The notes under the pieces: model-generated
The model's database searches: none
What the model saw: only the letters and a program-made list of their open reading frames with translations
Told to the model about the DNA's origin: nothing
Translations under genes and position numbers: made by a program
Source: a virus
Virus record (IMG/VR): IMGVR_UViG_3300013286_000074
Location: 1 to 21,366 of that record
Reading direction: 5' to 3' (one strand)
DNA length: 21,366 nt
Shown here: positions 1 through 13,916 of the stretch, in pieces
How positions within the stretch are numbered: position 1 is the stretch's first letter
How the letters are laid out: every line of letters starts with the position of its first letter

Positions 1-662
1 ACAGGGATGTCATAACGGCCGGACCAGTGATCAATCTTGTGATAATCGACATATTGACCATCATACAAACGGCGAACAGCAGTCAAGACCAACTGATCTT
101 CTGAACCATAGTCTAGAACGATACGCTGCTTACGAGAACACCACTCAAAGATGGGAGTATACCCATTGGCAATACAATCGACAGCAAAATCAATATAACG
201 ATCATCCACAAACTCTTCAACAGGCTTTGCCACATCGGTCGAGCCCATTTTTGTGCCCCAGATCATTTCACCATTCACAATGAACGCTGCGATCATTGAA
301 CCATCAAGCTTCTCAAGGATAGCATGAGGACGTGAAAGGTCTACAACATGATCCTGAGTCTCATCACGCTCGTTCACATTGAAGAACTTATGGAAAGGAC
401 GGCGAATGATATCACCAGTTGCAGTATCAAAGATAATACCACGGCATTCACGACGAACTGCAGCATAATAACTTTCCAACGCTTCCGTAGAGCTATGGAA
501 CATATAGTTCTCAACTGTGATAGCAGGAAACGTATCAGCCATCATCACATTGTAATTGATGACAGTATATGACCCTTTATCTGCGACTACAAACTCATCT
601 CTTCCCTCGATTGCTGGAAGAACGTCGCTTATATTTCGAATGATTGGGAACTCATAATTCAT
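1..662 (-). CDS. rnlA: RNA ligase of the T4 Rnl1 type, 5' part (runs off the window)
   Basis: This is an ATP-dependent RNA ligase that, in T4, reseals tRNA cut by host anticodon nuclease. Translation from the ATG at 662 gives about 220 residues before the window edge. It shows ECRGIIFD (about residues 73-80), FHKFFNVNE (about 92-100) and the adenylation motif KLDGS (about 124-128), whose lysine takes AMP. The downstream FEWCSRKQRIVLDY segment matches the Rnl1 pattern FEWxxxxxRIVLxY. The C-terminus lies outside the window. AAAGGA sits about 7 nt before the ATG, and a TTGACA promoter (688-716) lies just upstream. The first 27 residues are encoded a second time at 1496-1576, beyond a plus-strand endonuclease gene. 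The present 5' end therefore looks like an imported, synonymously different copy. The family assignment is firm; the import is inferred. Confidence 0.92.
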   Translation of the reverse strand, partial: MNYEFPIIRNISDVLPAIEGRDEFVVADKGSYTVINYNVMMADTFPAITVENYMFHSSTEALESYYAAVRRECRGIIFDTATGDIIRRPFHKFFNVNERDETQDHVVDLSRPHAILEKLDGSMIAAFIVNGEMIWGTKMGSTDVAKPVEEFVDDRYIDFAVDCIANGYTPIFEWCSRKQRIVLDYGSEDQLVLTAVRRLYDGQYVDYHKIDHWSGRYDIP

Positions 663-687
663 TATATATCCTTTCATCAATATATTT

Positions 688-716
688 CTTATAATATATA
701 TTGAGAATAATGTCAA
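688..716 (-). promoter_or_regulatory. Host-type (sigma70-like) promoter for rnlA
   Basis: Read on the minus strand, TTGACA (716-711) is followed by 17 bases and then TATAAG (693-688), about 25 bases before the rnlA start. It shares the GTTGACATT core with six other promoters in this window. Confidence 0.65.
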
Positions 717-721
717 CCTTA

Positions 722-729
722 TATAAATA
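722..729 (+). promoter_or_regulatory. T4-type late promoter for the plus-strand endonuclease
   Basis: The sequence TATAAATA is the T4 late promoter -10 box. It lies about 65 bases before the endonuclease ATG at 793, on the strand opposite to nearly all other genes here. A small hairpin (GGTAT/ATACC, 748-761) is in the leader. Confidence 0.6.
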
Positions 730-792
730 AGAAAATGACTGTCGCGGTATCCCCATACCCACAGCCTCTAACGCTAAACAGGAGCATCAGCT

Positions 793-1527
793 ATGGATAT
801 TTATTACACTGCAACAGACCGTTCGCCTTATACCTATCTTTTAGAATGGTCAAAACACAATATGAGATATTATGGTGTAAGATACGCCAAAGGTTGCCAT
901 CCCAACGATCTCTGGAATCCCTATAAAACTTCTTCAACATATGTCGCTGCGTTTGTAGAACAATACGGCGAACCAGATATAATCGAAGTTCGCAAAATAT
1001 TTACAAGCATCAATGATGCAAGACAATGGGAAGAGAATGTTCTCAAAAGGCTAAACGTCACTGATAGGACTGATTATCTAAACAAAACAGATAATATATC
1101 AATATGTCCAATTGCATCTTCTAATGCAAAGAAACAATATTGGTCCCAGTTTACGCCAGATGAACGTACTGAGTTAATAACACCATCACGCTTAAAGATA
1201 CCAGAGGACATCAGAAAGTCATCAGCATCCACCGCTGGTAAAGCTAGTATGGCAAAATTATCAAAAGCAGACAAAAGAGCCAGAGGTCTTCATGCTGCTA
1301 GGATTGTAAATTCTAATATGACCGCAGAAGAAAAAACACAGCGTGGAAAGAAAGGTATGCAATCTAGATGGTCAAAAGATCCATCACTTCGTCCTCTGAG
1401 ACAATTTGATTGCCCTGTTTGTGGTACCCATATTCAAACAAGAGCTCCAACTACAAAAACTTGTAGTAAGAAATGCATGTATATTCATAGATCTCAGCCA
1501 CGACGAACTCATCACGACCTTCGATAG
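793..1527 (+). CDS. GIY-YIG-like homing endonuclease inserted in rnlA
   Basis: This 244-residue free-standing endonuclease is on the plus strand inside a minus-strand operon. Its N-terminus PYTYLLEW...RYYGVR (about residues 12-30) is a GIY-YIG-type nuclease core with TYL in place of GIY, YYG in place of YIG, and the following arginine. WEEN (about 75-78) may supply the catalytic glutamate. The C-terminus has a Cys4 zinc motif, CPVC...CSKKC (about 212-230). The protein at 13254-13916 shares PYTYL, YYGVR, DLW, TSS and GEPDII, so the two are one family. AGGAG precedes the ATG, and a late promoter lies at 722. The last eight residues are read from antisense rnlA sequence, so the original 3' end may be lost. 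Homing into rnlA is inferred from the flanking duplicated sequence. Nuclease activity cannot be judged. Confidence 0.82.
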   Translation: MDIYYTATDRSPYTYLLEWSKHNMRYYGVRYAKGCHPNDLWNPYKTSSTYVAAFVEQYGEPDIIEVRKIFTSINDARQWEENVLKRLNVTDRTDYLNKTDNISICPIASSNAKKQYWSQFTPDERTELITPSRLKIPEDIRKSSASTAGKASMAKLSKADKRARGLHAARIVNSNMTAEEKTQRGKKGMQSRWSKDPSLRPLRQFDCPVCGTHIQTRAPTTKTCSKKCMYIHRSQPRRTHHDLR

Positions 1528-1576
1528 CAGGTAGCACATCAGAAATGTTGCGGATAAGGGGAAATTCGTAGTTCAT
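1496..1576 (-). pseudogene. Remnant of the ancestral rnlA 5' end (27 codons)
   Basis: Starting at the ATG at 1576, the minus strand encodes the same first 27 residues as rnlA at 662, except Leu for Ile at position 7. It diverges after residue 27, where the endonuclease sequence begins. It keeps a Shine-Dalgarno (AAGGA) and sits 2 nt after the stop of the 1579 gene, which is the spacing expected of the original operon. By my count 27 of 81 bases differ and 22 codon changes are silent. This looks like the original start of the ligase gene, cut off when the endonuclease arrived. Confidence 0.85.
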
Positions 1577-1578
1577 AA

Positions 1579-1773
1579 TTAATTTTCCTTGACGGTCTGC
1601 TTGATAGCATCAATGATCATAGAGAATTGATTAGGATTAAGTCGACCTTCATGAACATACATCCAAAGAAGCTTGTCATGTTCGACATAAGTTCCATCAA
1701 TAATCTTTCGGCAAATTGAACGGACACGTTGATCACCATAACGACCACGACCTTTGATAGTTAGTGATAACAT
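1579..1773 (-). CDS. Small protein of unknown function, start possibly frameshifted
   Basis: I do not recognise the family. From the ATG at 1773 it is 64 residues, basic at the N-terminus (KGRGRYGDQRVRS) with a helical C-terminus. The start is unclear. The leader shared with other genes (GGAATGGAGATTGAT-ATG) points to an ATG at 1783, but that frame stops after 16 codons. A single-base shift near 1757 would join MSHDVITNY to KGRGRYGDQ. An ATG at 1800 is in frame, but it falls inside the leader and is unlikely to be used. Either the gene starts at 1773 with a distant Shine-Dalgarno, or it carries a one-base insertion. It is directly upstream of the rnlA remnant. Confidence 0.55.
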   Translation of the reverse strand: MLSLTIKGRGRYGDQRVRSICRKIIDGTYVEHDKLLWMYVHEGRLNPNQFSMIIDAIKQTVKEN

Positions 1774-1788
1774 CGTGAGACATATCAA

Positions 1789-1837
1789 TCTCCATTCCAT
1801 ATAGATTATGTATAATCCATTCCGGGAAAAATGTCAA
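1789..1837 (-). repeat. Promoter and leader cassette, first copy
   Basis: Near-identical to 7439-7487 (two mismatches in 49). A third, more divergent relative of the leader half precedes the gene at 2578. It probably spread by recombination between early promoters. Confidence 0.8.
1809..1837 (-). promoter_or_regulatory. Host-type promoter for the 1579-1773 gene
   Basis: On the minus strand TTGACA (1837-1832), a 17-base spacer and TATACA (1814-1809) precede the gene. The stretch 1789-1837 is repeated almost exactly at 7439-7487. Confidence 0.7.
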
Positions 1838-2599: not shown

Positions 2600-2632
2600 A
2601 TTATATCTAACACATTCTTTAAAAAATGTAAA
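2600..2632 (-). promoter_or_regulatory. Host-type promoter for the 2578-1845 operon
   Basis: On the minus strand TTTACA (2632-2627) is followed after 17 bases by TAGATA (2609-2604). A better TATAAT (2605-2600) sits at a 21-base spacing. The conserved leader to the ATG at 2578 follows directly. Confidence 0.55.
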
Positions 2633-2655
2633 CAAAAAAGTACAGCTAAAACGAA

Positions 2656-2687
2656 AAAATTCCACCGACAGAAGCCGATGGAATTTT
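2656..2687 (-). terminator. Rho-independent terminator after the 2708-3070 gene
   Basis: A 12-bp stem (2676-2687 with 2656-2667, one G:U pair) has an 8-base loop, and its 3' arm runs into six T on the minus strand. It is nearly symmetrical, so it could also act on the plus strand. It separates the upstream gene from the promoter at 2600-2632. Confidence 0.75.
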
Positions 2688-2707
2688 CTTATTAAAAGCA
2701 AAAGTTG

Positions 2708-3070
2708 TTAAATAATATAGTCAAAAAGAAAAGGTGCCAGTCCTATCAAGAAAAAGATAGGAATAAAAACCGCACAACCTTGATTCTGTCCAGTTGTCCG
2801 CTTTCGGGTTCCAGAACTTGTTTTACGAGTTTTAGCTTTTTTTACTTTTGGTGAACCATATGTCTTGGTGGTTCGTTTAACGGCGCCAGTAGTTCCACAT
2901 GTTATATATTCAGTTACTTTTTCTTTACCATCAGAAAAAGACCTATTGATAGTTCGACCACCAGTTTTAGTTGAATATGACCTAGTAGTCTTACCTTTAA
3001 AGTTGGTACTGAAGTTTGTGTACTGACCAGGTCCTGTCTTTCGGCGAGTACGTTTGATAAAATTAGCCAT
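2708..3070 (-). CDS. Basic protein with a C-terminal membrane segment, 120 aa
   Basis: No family is recognised. The first 90 residues are rich in Lys, Arg, Thr and Ser (for example KVKKAKTRKTSSGTRKRTTG). They are followed by a hydrophobic segment, CAVFIPIFFLIGLAPFLFDYII, long enough to span a membrane. The ATG at 3070 overlaps the upstream stop (TAATG), and an upstream alternative start at 3079 lies inside that gene. A strong terminator follows. A membrane-anchored protein with a positively charged tail that could touch nucleic acid is only a guess. Confidence 0.65.
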   Translation of the reverse strand: MANFIKRTRRKTGPGQYTNFSTNFKGKTTRSYSTKTGGRTINRSFSDGKEKVTEYITCGTTGAVKRTTKTYGSPKVKKAKTRKTSSGTRKRTTGQNQGCAVFIPIFFLIGLAPFLFDYII

Positions 3071-3774
3071 TAATCCCAAAGCCCAAAATAGTATTTAGCA
3101 AAAAGTCGATGACCATTTGAGATTCGTTTATAATGAGCTTTCTTGCCTTCTTCATCAACATAATATGCAGGCTTGGTTGGGTCTTTCTGGTAGTTGAAAT
3201 CAAGCGACTTCATACCCTTACTGTCAAGGTTTTCATCACCTGTGTTCTTAAATGTCATCTCAAGTTGATCTGAATTATGATAAAATTGATCATCATTATT
3301 ATCTTCATGTGTGCATTGCTCGAATGCCCAAATCATCTCATCAAGTACATACTCCCAACGAGCCTCATGATTGTTGTCTGTGTCCCATTCATTTTCTTTA
3401 GGTCCGGCAGAAGTAGACTTTAGTTGCTCTGGAACATCTTCATCATCAACCAAAGGTGAACCGTGCTTCTGCTTCTTAAGCTCAACAAGAACGGGATGAA
3501 TAATCAGAGAGAGGGTGTGATCAGCACCCCATACATCATAATTATCAATACGAATATTGATCTTACGCTTACGACTGTTTGACCAGCGATTAAGTGGACG
3601 CACAAGATCACTCAGCTTATCAAAGAAACCAAAGACGAGCTTATCGTACCACAAATAATCCTTTTCAGCAAAGAAATAGTTATCTGTCTGTTCATACCGC
3701 ATAAACTCATACTTGCGTTCCCAGGAATAAACAGGTATGAGATCCGATTTATAAGGTCCAATATGTACTTTCAT
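3070..3774 (-). CDS. Conserved phage protein of unknown function, 234 aa
   Basis: The sequence matches a widespread uncharacterised protein of T4-like phages, recalled by its pattern: MKVHIGPYKS at the N-terminus, NSRKRKINIRIDNYDVW, HTLSLIIHPVLVELKKQKHG, SPLVDDEDVPEQL, and ARWEYVLDEMIWAFEQ. The protein is acidic, without membrane segments or nuclease motifs that I can identify. The ATG at 3774 overlaps the stop of a 34-codon ORF upstream. No function is proposed. Family membership is from memory of the pattern, not a search. Confidence 0.85.
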   Translation of the reverse strand: MKVHIGPYKSDLIPVYSWERKYEFMRYEQTDNYFFAEKDYLWYDKLVFGFFDKLSDLVRPLNRWSNSRKRKINIRIDNYDVWGADHTLSLIIHPVLVELKKQKHGSPLVDDEDVPEQLKSTSAGPKENEWDTDNNHEARWEYVLDEMIWAFEQCTHEDNNDDQFYHNSDQLEMTFKNTGDENLDSKGMKSLDFNYQKDPTKPAYYVDEEGKKAHYKRISNGHRLFAKYYFGLWD

Positions 3775-3878
3775 TAAATTGTCACCATCGTTAAAGTTGT
3801 AATTTTATTTATAAAATTATAAAGGAGAAATTTATGTATTGCGTATATCTTACTAGTAATCTTTTCAAATGCACTCAT
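3774..3878 (-). CDS. Possible 34-aa ORF coupled to the 3774 gene, overlapping an endonuclease remnant
   Basis: Four bases after the stop of the 3880-4350 gene, an ATG at 3878 opens a 34-codon frame (MSAFEKITSK at the start, TMVTI at the end). Its TAA overlaps the ATG of the next gene as TAATG. Both ends have the packing typical of real genes here, but the middle is the antisense of a plus-strand endonuclease start. It may be a small gene rebuilt around the insertion, or chance. Confidence 0.3.
   Translation of the reverse strand: MSAFEKITSKIYAIHKFLLYNFINKITTLTMVTI
3834..3860 (+). pseudogene. 5' remnant of a GIY-YIG homing endonuclease gene
   Basis: The plus strand has a TTTATAAAATTATA stretch like a decayed late promoter, a strong Shine-Dalgarno (AAAGGAG) and an ATG at 3834. 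The first codons, MYCVYLTSN, match the start MYCVYITEY of the endonuclease at 17508-18353. The frame then closes after 23 codons inside the neighbouring gene. It looks like the front end of a lost endonuclease. Confidence 0.5.
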
Positions 3879-3879
3879 G

Positions 3880-4350
3880 TTAAAACTCACCTTCAATCAA
3901 AGTAATAAAATCATCAATATTAGAACAAAGTGGAATATCATATCTATCACAGATCATCTCGACATTACCTTTGCGCCAATAACCATCAGGGCAGCAAACA
4001 ATTGCTGAAATTCCCAGTCCTGCTACTAGTCCAAGTTCCATAAGTGTGATAGCCGCTTGTCCATTTGGATCAAAGTAAAAAACTACAAGATCTGCATTTT
4101 CAATGTTTTCCAGTTCCCAAGTAACTTGCTCATTAAACTGAGGGTTATCAATTGACTGAACCCATGTTGAATCCCAATCATCTCGGCGAGGATTGCAGAT
4201 AACCACATCATAATCTGCAAATTCTCGCTCTAATCGTTCCTGCCAATTTTCTGCCTTGCCCATATCAATTGATCCGGCAAGAAAGATACGAGGCATGTGT
4301 TCGTACTTAACATCGAATGTATCTTCAGGTGCTTTATAGATAATAGCCAT
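3880..4350 (-). CDS. Nucleoside 2-deoxyribosyltransferase-like protein
   Basis: The 156-residue protein has RIFLAGSID (about residues 21-29), then ENWQERLER, a DYDVVICNPRRDDWD segment, NPQFNEQVTWELENIENADLVVFYFDP and MELGLVAG (about 123-130). This is the layout of the nucleoside 2-deoxyribosyltransferase-like superfamily. In that superfamily a glutamate in the MELG region is a candidate nucleophile and the N-terminal glycine-rich loop binds the nucleotide. Phage members are thought to act on nucleotides, but substrates are rarely known. It is coupled in a minus-strand run with 4355-4612. The domain call is good; the reaction is inferred. Confidence 0.75.
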   Translation of the reverse strand: MAIIYKAPEDTFDVKYEHMPRIFLAGSIDMGKAENWQERLEREFADYDVVICNPRRDDWDSTWVQSIDNPQFNEQVTWELENIENADLVVFYFDPNGQAAITLMELGLVAGLGISAIVCCPDGYWRKGNVEMICDRYDIPLCSNIDDFITLIEGEF

Positions 4351-4354
4351 TACT

Positions 4355-4612
4355 TTACTCTCTCATAAACGGTCTGGTAATTACAACTTCTTTAGGAGTA
4401 ACCTCATAGACCTCAGGATCGTCGTAGTAATAATCAGTATAATAAGAGCCATATCGACATTGATCAATTTCGTAATACTTATCTTCAATCTTTACATAAG
4501 ATGTTCTGAATGATCTTTTGCCATCATCAATCCAATCACCTTCTTTAAGAATAGTAAGTTCAGGATCTTCATCATTAAACATTATTGCAATTTCAGCATT
4601 AGTATAAGGCAT
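4355..4612 (-). CDS. Hypothetical acidic protein, 85 aa
   Basis: No family is recognised. The sequence is acidic and tyrosine-rich (YYTDYYYDDPEVYEV) with alternating hydrophobic residues that suggest beta structure. The ATG at 4612 overlaps the upstream TGA, so translation is coupled; a TTG at 4615 is the only alternative. It lies between the DUF6915-like gene and the deoxyribosyltransferase-like gene. Confidence 0.65.
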   Translation of the reverse strand: MPYTNAEIAIMFNDEDPELTILKEGDWIDDGKRSFRTSYVKIEDKYYEIDQCRYGSYYTDYYYDDPEVYEVTPKEVVITRPFMRE

Positions 4613-5101: not shown

Positions 5102-5178
5102 TGGTGCGCCCGGAGAGACTTGAACTCCCAACCTATCCGTTATGAGCGGACAGCTCTGACCAATTGAGCTACAGGCGC
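5102..5178 (-). tRNA. tRNA with CAT anticodon (Met or Ile2)
   Basis: A full cloverleaf can be drawn on the minus strand. The acceptor arm GCGCCTG pairs with CGGGCGC, the D stem GCTC pairs with GAGC, the anticodon stem GTCCG/CGGAT holds the loop CTCATAA, the T arm is GGGAG-TTCAAGT-CTCTC, and ACCA is encoded. The anticodon CAT means elongator Met, or Ile if the first base is modified to lysidine. The sequence alone does not decide between them. Confidence 0.9.
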
Positions 5179-5192
5179 AAAGATGGTGAAAA

Positions 5193-5274
5193 TGGTGCCC
5201 CAGGAGAGATTCGAACTCCCATACTCCAATTACATCGTTGACGACCGCTTAGAAGGCGGGGATGATACTGGGGC
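5193..5274 (-). tRNA. Aberrant tRNA-like gene, apparent TCT anticodon (Arg)
   Basis: A perfect 7-bp acceptor stem (GCCCCAG/CTGGGGC), a normal T arm (GGGAG-TTCGAAT-CTCTC) and an encoded ACCA are clear. The only good anticodon arm is CCGC-CTTCTAA-GCGG, which reads TCT. However, just seven bases separate it from the acceptor stem, so there is no D arm, and 23 bases fill the variable region. CATC before and GATG after this hairpin could pair instead. The coding end of the upstream endonuclease runs into it (stop at 5230). It may be a rearranged or non-functional tRNA. Confidence 0.5.
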
Positions 5275-6015
5275 ACGTTTAAAGCATTTTTCTTCATAAA
5301 AATGAGGTAAATATCGTTTCATCCAACTATTTACCTTTTGTGGTTTTATACTTAATATTTCTGAAACTTTTGAAACCCAACCAAACTTTGTGAAATCTAT
5401 ATTAGAATTCAATATCAAATTTTTGTATGGATTCCATTTTAAATCTGTTTTATTTCTCACAGATTCACCTATTTCTTTTTTTGTTCTTTTAATTTTTCTA
5501 ATTTTTCTTTTTTCGGCAATCTTAAAATATTCAGTGTAATCTGGTTGGAATTCAATATCAATTATTTTATTTATTAGTTCTATATTATAGCAACTTGAAT
5601 AATGTAATTCAATTAAAGTCCAACCCGATGCTTCAATTTCATCATGTCGAAGTTTATAATACTCTTTTAAATTTCCAGATCTATCGTAATGCTGATTGCC
5701 ATTTACTTCAATGCCGAGCTTTATGTCTGGAAATGCAATATCAATAGAATAAAATCTAGATTGAAGAGGTTGCCACTCTTCGATAAAAACTAAACCTTTA
5801 GAAATTAAATATTTCTTTAAATGTTCACAGGGGCTAGATTTAAATTTAGTATGTCTTTTCCATACATGCTTATCTGGGTTGTCTTTTAAATATTGTTTAC
5901 GTTTTTCACTGAGAAGTAACCTAGTTTTATCATCATGTTGATGTGAACATTTATCGCTACAATATTTTGCTCTAACTCTAAGATTTTCATTACCGCATCT
6001 TGGACATAACTTCAT
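5230..6015 (-). CDS. Vsr-like (PD-(D/E)XK) homing endonuclease abutting a tRNA
   Basis: This 261-residue endonuclease opens with a Cys4 zinc motif, CPRCGN...YCSDKC (residues 4-23). A nuclease core follows with FYSIDIAFPDIKLGIEVNGNQHY (about 87-109). Its D...ExxGxQH order fits the Vsr-like/EDxHD homing-endonuclease group. The C-terminal part (GWVSKVSEILSIKPQKVNSWMKRYLPHF) looks like a helix-turn-helix DNA-binding unit. After KCFKR the last 14 residues are read from the tRNA-like gene at 5193-5274, so the native stop has probably been lost or displaced. A late promoter (6046-6053) lies within an inverted repeat that reaches the Shine-Dalgarno. The codons are more AT-rich than those of the neighbours. 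The nuclease class is likely; the target, probably the tRNA, is inferred. Confidence 0.8.
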   Translation of the reverse strand: MKLCPRCGNENLRVRAKYCSDKCSHQHDDKTRLLLSEKRKQYLKDNPDKHVWKRHTKFKSSPCEHLKKYLISKGLVFIEEWQPLQSRFYSIDIAFPDIKLGIEVNGNQHYDRSGNLKEYYKLRHDEIEASGWTLIELHYSSCYNIELINKIIDIEFQPDYTEYFKIAEKRKIRKIKRTKKEIGESVRNKTDLKWNPYKNLILNSNIDFTKFGWVSKVSEILSIKPQKVNSWMKRYLPHFYEEKCFKRAPVSSPPSKRSSTM

Positions 6016-12070: not shown

Positions 12071-13261
12071 TCACTTTTTGAAATTCTTCTTAAGAAGTGA
12101 TGGGTCAGCGGTTGCAGATGCGCCAATTTGAGCAAGATCTACAAGTGAGCCACCAAAGACCATCATACCAACATGCTGTAGTGACATCCATGGGCAGAAC
12201 CAAACCTTCATACCAGCCTTACGTGTCCACTGACAGAACATGTAATCTTCTGATAGATAGCGATTTGTGTCTGGGCAGATTGGAGTATCGAAGAAAGCCA
12301 TAATCTGACGTGAACCATCAAAATGCTCAGTACGAATATGATCTGGTGTGTATAGCTGCTCTGGATAAGCCTCAGCAAACCGCTCAAAGGTATTACGGCG
12401 AATCATCATAAAGCCAGTACCAGCTTCAAGAACTTCTACTGGTTCACCAAGAGGAATTGAACCATTACCCTGTACTGGATTAAAGACATAGTCACCGACA
12501 TACTTTTCAAGATTCTGTGGATTCTCATCAGCAAAACCTTTGTCAACAGCTGTCTTAATCTTTTCCCATGAGATACACTTCTTAGGATATGGACCGGCAA
12601 TGATATCGTACTGATTGTTTGGGTCCTCATGATCTGATAGTGCTAGAAGAGCAATAACGTCTTGTGCATTGAAACCAATATCCGAGTCGATAAACATTAG
12701 GTGAGTGTCACCAGAACGCATAAACTCATCCGCACAATAGTTTCTAGCACGAGTAATCAATGATTCATTAAATAGAAAATAAAATCTTACCTGAATACCA
12801 TAATGTGTACATAGTGCAGAAAGATCTGCTACAGATCTGGCAAACATACCAGCGCATTGTCCCATTTTGTTCAATAAGATTCGTTAAATCTTATCCGGTT
12901 AAACCAGCTATAAATTTCTTTATAGATCAGACTATATCTTCATCCAGTAACAATTAACTGGAGCTACGCACTTCGGATCACTTGATCCTACTTCCTGTCG
13001 GAATAGTCGTTGAACCTTTTCCATATCATAAGACTTAGGAACTTGGCTGCTGATTGCCCAATATAACATCTTTTTAACATTCAAACAATCTTTCGATTAA
13101 TTTTGTAGTGTGTTATCTCTAAGGGGGTTCCAGCAATTCACGTAGTTATCTTCAAAGATTACTCAAAGAAGAGGCAGAGTTTTACCATACATTGGGGCAG
13201 CTACAAATAATTTTCGATCTCTTAATCTTTCAATTGGTACTTTAATTTCTAAATTAGACAT
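12071..13261 (-). CDS. Glycosyltransferase (GT-A fold type) split by a group I intron
   Basis: The gene is in two exons, 13261-13184 and 12862-12071, which join to a protein of about 289 residues. Exon 1 encodes MSNLEIKVPIERLRDRKLFVAAPMYG, and in the unspliced RNA it stops soon after. Exon 2 continues GQCAGMFARSVADLSALCTHYGI, then FYFLFNESLITRARNYCADEF and THLMFIDSDIGF (DSD as the metal and sugar-nucleotide site). The junction rebuilds the MYGGQC segment that I recall as continuous in phage glycosyltransferases of this type. An in-frame ATG at 12874 lies in the intron and would give a truncated product. The substrate is unknown. The stop sits directly before the gp45 promoter. The exact splice sites may be off by a base or two. 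Confidence 0.8.
12863..13183 (-). ncRNA. Group I intron, ORF-less, subgroup IA-like
   Basis: On the minus strand the conserved core elements occur in order: P (GAATTGCTGGAA), Q (AATCAGCAGCC), R (GTTCAACGACTA) and S (AAGATATAGTC). P4 pairs 13131-13136 with 13047-13052, and P7 pairs 13003-13008 with 12930-12935 (six base pairs each). Further hairpins are 12975-12988, 12944-12961, 12908-12925 (P9-like, 7 bp) and 12874-12894 (8 bp). The 5' site follows a T and the intron ends in G, as the class requires. P1 is short (GGU with GCC). At 321 bases it has no room for an endonuclease. A free-standing endonuclease lies just upstream of exon 1. Confidence 0.92.
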
Positions 13262-13916
13262 TTGTGTTTTTCCTTTTCATATTATTGCTTATTTTCATTT
13301 TAGTCTCCTCCGTGTGAGTTTTTCCATAAAATGGATTATTAGAGCCACTCTTATCATAATTTCCAAAATTTGAATCTTTCGGTATGATTCTACCTTTGTT
13401 CCAATTAGAATAATTAATATCATATTCTTCGGGATTTATTCTTTTGTGATTTATTCCATCATTAATCCAAATTTTGTCTTTATGAGAAACACATGAATCT
13501 TTATGTTTTTTTCTTTTTACTGGATCTAAAAATTGAAGTCTTGTAGCTTCTCTTAATTTTGATTTCATCTCATAGCTATTCATTCTTTCTTTCATAGCTT
13601 GTTTCATTTGATCATCCATGACAATCGTTGCACCTATAGCTTTATTAAGCCATCTATTTTTTTCGTCTGATTCAAAAAGACATTGTCTAATTTTTAATTT
13701 TTCATAGTCAATCGCATCTTGAGCTATTTCAAATACCATGTCAATTAAAATTATATCAGGTTCTCCATGCGATTCTCTAAAATTTTTTACATGTTTAGAA
13801 GAGGTAAAGTACTTTACCCAAAGATCTTTTTCTGGTTCAACTTTATTGGCAAATCTAACACCGTAGTAATATTTTTCTAATTCTGACCAGCCTATTAAAT
13901 ATGTATATGGTTTCAT
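13254..13916 (-). CDS. GIY-YIG-like homing endonuclease next to the intron-bearing gene
   Basis: The 220-residue protein begins MKPYTYLIGW and has YYYGVRF (about residues 16-22), the same GIY-YIG variant as the gene at 793-1527 (shared DLW, TSS, GEPDII). The C-terminus carries a NUMOD3-type DNA-binding motif, NNPFYGKTHTEETKMKISNNM. Its stop codon overlaps the ATG of exon 1 of the glycosyltransferase by 8 bases, so it is free-standing, not inside the intron. A late promoter sits in an inverted repeat that covers its ribosome binding site. It may cut intronless alleles and help move the intron, as described for F-CphI in a cyanophage; this is inference. Confidence 0.85.
   Translation of the reverse strand: MKPYTYLIGWSELEKYYYGVRFANKVEPEKDLWVKYFTSSKHVKNFRESHGEPDIILIDMVFEIAQDAIDYEKLKIRQCLFESDEKNRWLNKAIGATIVMDDQMKQAMKERMNSYEMKSKLREATRLQFLDPVKRKKHKDSCVSHKDKIWINDGINHKRINPEEYDINYSNWNKGRIIPKDSNFGNYDKSGSNNPFYGKTHTEETKMKISNNMKRKNTNV

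Follow-up and report, generated by a model that had tools for sequence, protein, structure and literature searches.

Near one end of the 21,366-nt viral DNA analyzed here (the window), whose gene content is that of a T4-like phage, the RNA ligase gene rnlA begins twice, once on either side of an endonuclease gene. The locus raises the question of how a conserved gene acquired a second start that differs in nearly every codon while specifying nearly the same protein, and what part the endonuclease played in this exchange.

Two rnlA starts around an endonuclease gene

A sequence-only reading of the window had proposed that an endonuclease, a promoter, and a diverged 5′ exon were inserted at the start of rnlA and left the gene intact, which the architecture of the locus supports (Table 1). 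The two 5′ ends lie exactly where that reading placed them, at 662–582 (live) and 1576–1496 (dead). They are identical at 54 of 81 bases and differ at 27; 23 of 27 codons are changed and 4 are identical, and the sole amino-acid difference is Ile7/Leu7. The dead ATG (1576–1574), as also described there, is located two bases past the stop of the upstream ORF (1800–1579).

Comparison with relatives delimited both ends further. Alignment to the rnlA gene of relative L009 (blastn) extends the homology of the dead copy to 85 nt, reaching 1492 and hence beyond 1496, and homology of the endonuclease gene (homing endonuclease gene, HEG) to its relative in L016 starts at 1491 (blastn). The breakpoint at 1491/1492 is therefore sharp to the base, and it lacks long homology. 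The final 11 codons of the HEG ORF (793–1527) consist of antisense dead copy. In the live copy, anomalous codons extend to codon 31 rather than 27, followed by family-typical codons 32–45. The dead copy is 91% identical to the rnlA starts of L009 and L013.

When 165 loci (1.13 Mb) were scanned for same-strand peptide repeats located 0.2–2.5 kb apart, a conserved gene start flanking an HEG was seen in the window only, which indicates that the rnlA duplication is not a chance occurrence; the remaining matches came mainly from entire paralogous genes, repeats, or tail-type proteins. The promoter of the live gene consists of TTGACA (716–711) and TATAAG (693–688) with a 17-nt spacing. In a promoter scan, the rule of which cannot score a TATAAG −10 box, promoter-like sites were no commoner than in shuffled sequences; recurrence of the promoter in L006 and in the leaders of relatives provides the better support.

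Table 1. Features at the rnlA end of the window (positions counted from its first base)
Feature	Position	Strand	Basis
Live rnlA (T4 RNA ligase 1 family), cut by window end	1..662	-	Pfam PF09511, E 3e-25; PHROG 562
Diverged ("recoded") 5′ exon, codons 1-31, ADKGS class	570..662	-	Per-codon comparison with relatives
Shine-Dalgarno AAAGGA of live rnlA	669..674	-	Sequence
Promoter of live rnlA, TTGACA-17-TATAAG	688..716	-	Sequence; near-identical tract in L006
T4-type late promoter TATAAATA of endonuclease	722..729	+	Sequence; recurs before other HEGs
Structured leader RNA of endonuclease (model R1), ends at HEG start codon	733..794	+	66.9 bits, E 1.6e-16
GIY-YIG endonuclease ORF, 244 aa	793..1527	+	PHROG 314; fold match; L016 relative in same place
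Breakpoint, HEG homology / dead rnlA homology	1491..1492	.	blastn to L016 HEG and L009 rnlA
Dead rnlA 5′ end (codons 1-28), native position after upstream ORF	1492..1576	-	L009/L013 identity; grouping with HEG-less alleles
Upstream ORF of native operon	1579..1800	-	Stop two bases before dead ATG

The window endonuclease matches the homing endonuclease family PHROG 314 (E = 1.8e-7); a Pfam search of the protein gave no GIY-YIG match. Residues Y26, Y27, G28, R30, E80, and N97 are invariant in an alignment of 24 endonuclease relatives. For an AlphaFold model (mean pLDDT 73.6; >90 across most of the catalytic part), the closest PDB structure is the catalytic domain of I-TevI (1mk0; probability 0.91, E = 0.085), and a zinc finger protein ranks third. 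The catalytic domain comprises approximately residues 12–98, and a zinc ribbon approximately residues 206–231; judged by the family match and the model, the enzyme is a GIY-YIG endonuclease with a zinc ribbon. The L016 protein runs about 50 residues further where the window ORF stops, and the window HEG, without this C-terminal part of its relative, may be inactive. The HEG is a separate ORF outside any intron or intein; a group I intron at the locus was ruled out, with Rfam finding none at 500–1900. A scan of viral contigs with the single protein gave no match, and an alignment-based scan identified 377 relatives. The codon usage of the HEG is no better a fit to the live exon than is core usage.

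Elsewhere in the window, a group I intron (12908–13196, minus strand; Rfam, 94 bits) interrupts a relative of phiN3 gp42, the neighbor of the clamp gene, after approximately residue 23. A free-standing GIY-YIG HEG (13254–13916, minus strand) is situated immediately upstream of this intron, an arrangement that resembles collaborative homing. A tRNA-Met (5105–5178, minus strand) and a weak tRNA-like match (5196–5274, minus strand) lie beside an endonuclease ORF at 5230–6015, the end of which is overlapped by the weak match.

Allele classes and the codons of the live exon

A comparison of 80 rnlA loci with 34 distinct rnlA starts distinguishes two classes of alleles. Five starts (window live copy, L006, L007, L014, and L017) read ADKG[SP] at codons 27–31, and nearly all others have KEG or KDG instead. 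In a tree of codons 1–31 (93 columns), the five ADKG alleles group together (UFboot 80), whereas they are scattered in a tree of codons 76–205. The earlier expectation that the live copy would cluster with endonuclease-bearing relatives and the dead copy with empty ones is borne out in the codons 1–31 tree, in which the live copy, L006, and HEG-bearing L017 group at UFboot 99 and the dead copy falls with HEG-less alleles. Excess divergence is limited to codons 1–31, with residuals of 0.47, 0.45, 0.30, 0.29, and 0.20 for the five ADKG alleles and a mean of 0.03 (sd 0.05) for the other alleles, L014 being counted among these others. Both HEG-bearing rnlA loci belong to the ADKG class, compared to 3 of 32 without HEG (10/561 = 0.018, counted by hand), an association that is weak because just two rnlA loci with an HEG are known. 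L006, L007, and L014 carry related ADKG-class alleles with no HEG at the site, and the diverged exon is therefore not confined to the element.

In L016 and L017, rnlA is immediately preceded by an antisense, full-length relative of the HEG, whose position and orientation are those seen in the window; a dead rnlA copy was looked for in both and not found. From its gene order, L016 is a donor-like arrangement. The insertion is absent from L010, whose upstream gene and leader end are similar. No second rnlA start was detected among named phages (29 records), and a DNA-level search with the window returned distant phages only. Two exact patterns for the live-type codons retrieved L006 (the same contig as L081) and ordinary relatives.

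L006 has no HEG within 2 kb before rnlA. Its promoter, leader, and first ~45 rnlA codons are 96–98% identical to those of the window, including 79 of 81 bases over codons 1–27 (98%), in a gene that is otherwise 43% identical over codons 44–75 and 65–85% identical in later blocks, which indicates that the cassette has moved. A live-type start in a relative devoid of the endonuclease had been named as an observation that would count against the proposed insertion. L006 presents this observation to the letter, but its start is transferred rather than native. Based on these identities, the L006 start is interpreted as either an allele that persisted after loss of its HEG or one that arrived by co-conversion without the nuclease gene. 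A co-conversion tract next to the HEG is present, as evidenced by the tract common to L006 and the window and by the conflicting trees.

At matched residues, codons of the live exon are common to 17% of relatives on average. Random synonymous choice predicts 39% with the usage of window genes, 44% with that of L006 genes, 46% with that of family rnlA bodies, and 35% with uniform usage; the observed value is below all four (P ≤ 0.0005), in a case that was picked for being extreme and in which the window and L006 are not independent. The L017, L007, and L014 alleles are close to or above what random choice predicts and thus no more than saturated. Because its sharing falls under the random expectation, the live exon has departed from the ordinary allele more than drift to saturation would account for. 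The sequence-only reading had suggested that a diverged donor phage would supply the recoding without selection, which 17% of shared codons versus 35–46% under the four models renders doubtful. The codon bias of a foreign donor was rejected as the whole cause, all four usage models predicting more sharing than is seen. Selection against self-cutting would be the natural reading of these anti-consensus codons.

Gene-end replacements elsewhere and a shared leader RNA

The element type anticipated from the window recurs in two further events, both at the 3′ ends of other genes. In six contigs (L002, L003, L004, L005, L046, and L051), a phosphoesterase gene is 97% identical to L006/L018 over its first 300 nt and switches to a foreign C-terminus around codons 100–119. 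After the switch follow a convergent GIY-YIG HEG, a small ORF, and the orphan native last 41 codons, which are almost identical to L006/L018 over about 120 nt. The third event affects the 3′ end of a gene, here called gene X, in L128/L130 (with HEG) versus L165/L201 (empty). The gene is identical at 616 of 618 bases up to codon 206 and then continues into a diverged replacement end, after which comes a convergent HEG that belongs to another GIY-YIG type; past the HEG, the native last 25 gene X codons are followed by downstream DNA as in the empty phages. Comparison of the tail from codon 196 (before the switch) shows 39 residues kept and 16 that differ, with the codon unchanged in just 19 of the 39 residue-conserving positions. 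Between L128 and L165/L201, the change is limited to the HEG and one gene end, and by this comparison they are a near-perfect before/after pair.

Each parallel event is represented by at least two contigs, which stem from different assemblies. In both 3′ events, donor sequence gives way to native sequence at a point located deeper in the gene body than where the dead copy has its inner end. At rnlA, the dead copy stops at codon 28; the sequence shared with L006 reaches codon 45. A switch deeper than the dead-copy end is the pattern that would be expected from one-sided-homology break repair with resection. It is important to note that the three events are a lower bound from an incomplete search, since most HEG loci have no close empty relatives against which to check for stranded ends.

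The HEGs of all three events share one leader RNA. In order, it consists of a late promoter (TATAAATA or a similar sequence), an outer stem that holds an inner hairpin, the motif UCUAA or one like it, a hairpin presenting the Shine-Dalgarno sequence in its loop, and finally CAGC and the start codon. Changes on both sides were observed in 14 of 14 pairs, in hand-picked sequences with helix 3 partly misaligned, and the covariation score is 0.637 versus 0.220 in shuffles. No Rfam family matches the leader. The leader model R1, which includes the window as one of 19 sequences, has 44 matches in 88 sources, among them window 733–794, L016 3868–3930 (minus strand), and L002 7750–7812 (minus strand). 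Where the next ORF was read, nearly all matches precede endonuclease-like ORFs, which by eye are several GIY-YIG types or HNH. Two contigs of 333–361 kb contain 13 leader copies each, and the leader is also present in Rhizobium phage RHph_I1_18 and Variovorax phage V45v66. Because the leaders of relatives repeat within these genomes, leader similarity alone was not used as evidence. As a covarying RNA preceding these endonuclease genes, the leader is undescribed.

Leader-bearing HEGs also occur in other contexts. In L086 (6828–8830) and L060 (reverse strand, 2632–4591), an antisense HEG with leader RNA splits rnlA mid-gene, near residue 192 and 208–242, with no Rfam intron at either split. In L155 (1691–4085), an HEG with leader RNA splits a long gene, the parts of which are contiguous at residue 400 of the L161 relative, again with no Rfam intron at the split. 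In the viral contig L092, an Alphaproteobacteria-type (permuted) tmRNA gene (3204–3698, minus strand) lies just before a leader-bearing HEG.

A homing model, its alternatives, and known systems

The architecture, sharp joints, mosaic alleles, two allele classes, and two further events can be read directly from the DNA. They probably reflect a free-standing GIY-YIG HEG that moves with the end of its target gene, with break repair swapping this end and stranding the old one. The donor would resemble L016/L017, in which the HEG is antisense directly before rnlA, beside a promoter and a diverged 5′ exon. The enzyme would cut the ordinary allele near codons 28–31, close to the inner end of the dead copy. 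The rnlA-body side of the break would be repaired by homology on the donor, copying in exon, promoter, and HEG, while the other break end would find no homology and be joined inside the HEG 3′ end, stranding codons 1–28 as the dead copy. We infer both the joining of the outer side without homology and the order of these steps. The imported end would presumably be resistant, with the changed codons making the exon uncuttable; rnlA itself is not disrupted, since the imported exon specifies the same protein. The rnlA event itself rests on one contig.

Alternatively, the HEG could be a mere passenger at a joint at which illegitimate recombination, as part of ordinary mosaicism, attached a second rnlA 5′ end. 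Such an origin would suit a breakpoint without long homology, and HEGs are known at the boundaries of phage–phage exchange (PMC10448857). It is unlikely, however, as in three independent events an HEG is flanked by a dead native end on one side and a foreign replacement end on the other, L128 and the near-identical L165/L201 differ just at the HEG and one gene end, and no gene-end duplication around a non-HEG ORF was noticed in the 165 loci by a scan that is insensitive to short or diverged ends. An assembly chimera of two phages from one metagenome, a concern for a window known from a single contig, is very improbable considering that the HEG–rnlA arrangement is also found in L016/L017 and that both parallel events are seen in two or more contigs of different assemblies. 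Tandem duplication in one phage with subsequent drift in place and later arrival of the HEG is hardly conceivable even though just one amino acid separates the copies. The live exon matches another phage, L006, at 79 of 81 bases, and the dead copy has 91% identity to L009/L013; without translation, a dead copy would not hold 26 of 27 residues through 27 substitutions; and L128 versus L165/L201 shows replacement instead. In situ duplication with drift was rejected.

The dead copy could also serve as the second homology arm of a self-contained element, with later homing being homologous on both sides. This role is conceivable but somewhat doubtful: the dead copy keeps native sequence (91% identity to L009/L013) and is on the outer side, as in the model for yeast WHO elements (PMC7282813), but the window's rnlA arrangement has a single known carrier, and the HEG C-terminus is apparently lost. 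The homology-arm reading is compatible with the homing model above, as its next step.

The window element works like two fungal systems and is a member of neither, since the enzyme family or genome type fails. In the WHO elements of Torulaspora and Lachancea yeasts (Coughlan et al. 2020, PMC7282813), the endonuclease gene likewise adjoins its target gene, homing swaps the end of an essential gene for a resistant allele of the same protein (resistance being presumed in the window), and a duplicated fragment of the old end remains, as in the window and both 3′ events; the WHO model proposes homology-arm use of this fragment (PMC7282813). In contrast to the predicted GIY-YIG enzyme with a zinc ribbon, the WHO enzyme is an intein-derived HO/VDE-type protein with a zinc finger, and WHO elements target mainly the FBA1 3′ end in nuclear DNA rather than a phage 5′ end dependent on a promoter of its own. 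Fungal mitochondrial mORFs with foreign C-termini (Paquin et al. 1994, cited by PMC3630166; Glomus cases in PMC3630166) similarly combine an HEG with a foreign gene end and leave the old end behind the HEG. For Glomus atp6, replacement and native ends are 63.5% identical in DNA and 91% in protein (PMC3630166). The mORFs differ in residing in fungal mitochondria, in affecting C-termini in the reported cases, in carrying no promoter, and in encoding LAGLIDADG enzymes except for one GIY-YIG (PMC3630166).

For the enzyme class, the closest known system is the free-standing Seg HEGs of T4, which are responsible for intronless homing (reviewed in PMC2988022) and, like the window HEG, are GIY-YIG genes between genes of a T4-like phage. 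Their target lies in the neighboring gene, with flanking co-conversion; the window enzyme would similarly cut its neighbor, rnlA. Unlike in the window, repair in that review proceeds by HEG-flanking homology, and no stranded gene end is described (PMC2988022). No phage case with a stranded gene end was found among the open-access papers searched. Engineered home-and-rescue and cleave-and-rescue drives also link a cutter to a rescue copy of an essential gene (PMC7968924, PMC7951863), but they are synthetic and operate in insects, whereas the window holds a natural phage element with a partial gene.

More generally, we tentatively suggest that HEG cassettes marked by the shared leader RNA form a general class in T4-like phages and spread by swapping the 5′ or 3′ end of a target gene for one with codons selected to differ from those of the cut allele. 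If so, these cassettes would be natural home-and-rescue drives with a recoded rescue exon. Gene-end-swapping homing, known from fungi, would then include phages as hosts and 5′ ends equipped with a promoter of their own. The comparison of L128 with L165/L201 makes a gene-end swap directly readable, and the allele pairs (dead versus live; L165/L201 versus L128) are ready for studying how free-standing endonucleases spare their carriers. The data suggest that selfish nucleases recode conserved phage genes codon by codon while leaving the protein unchanged.
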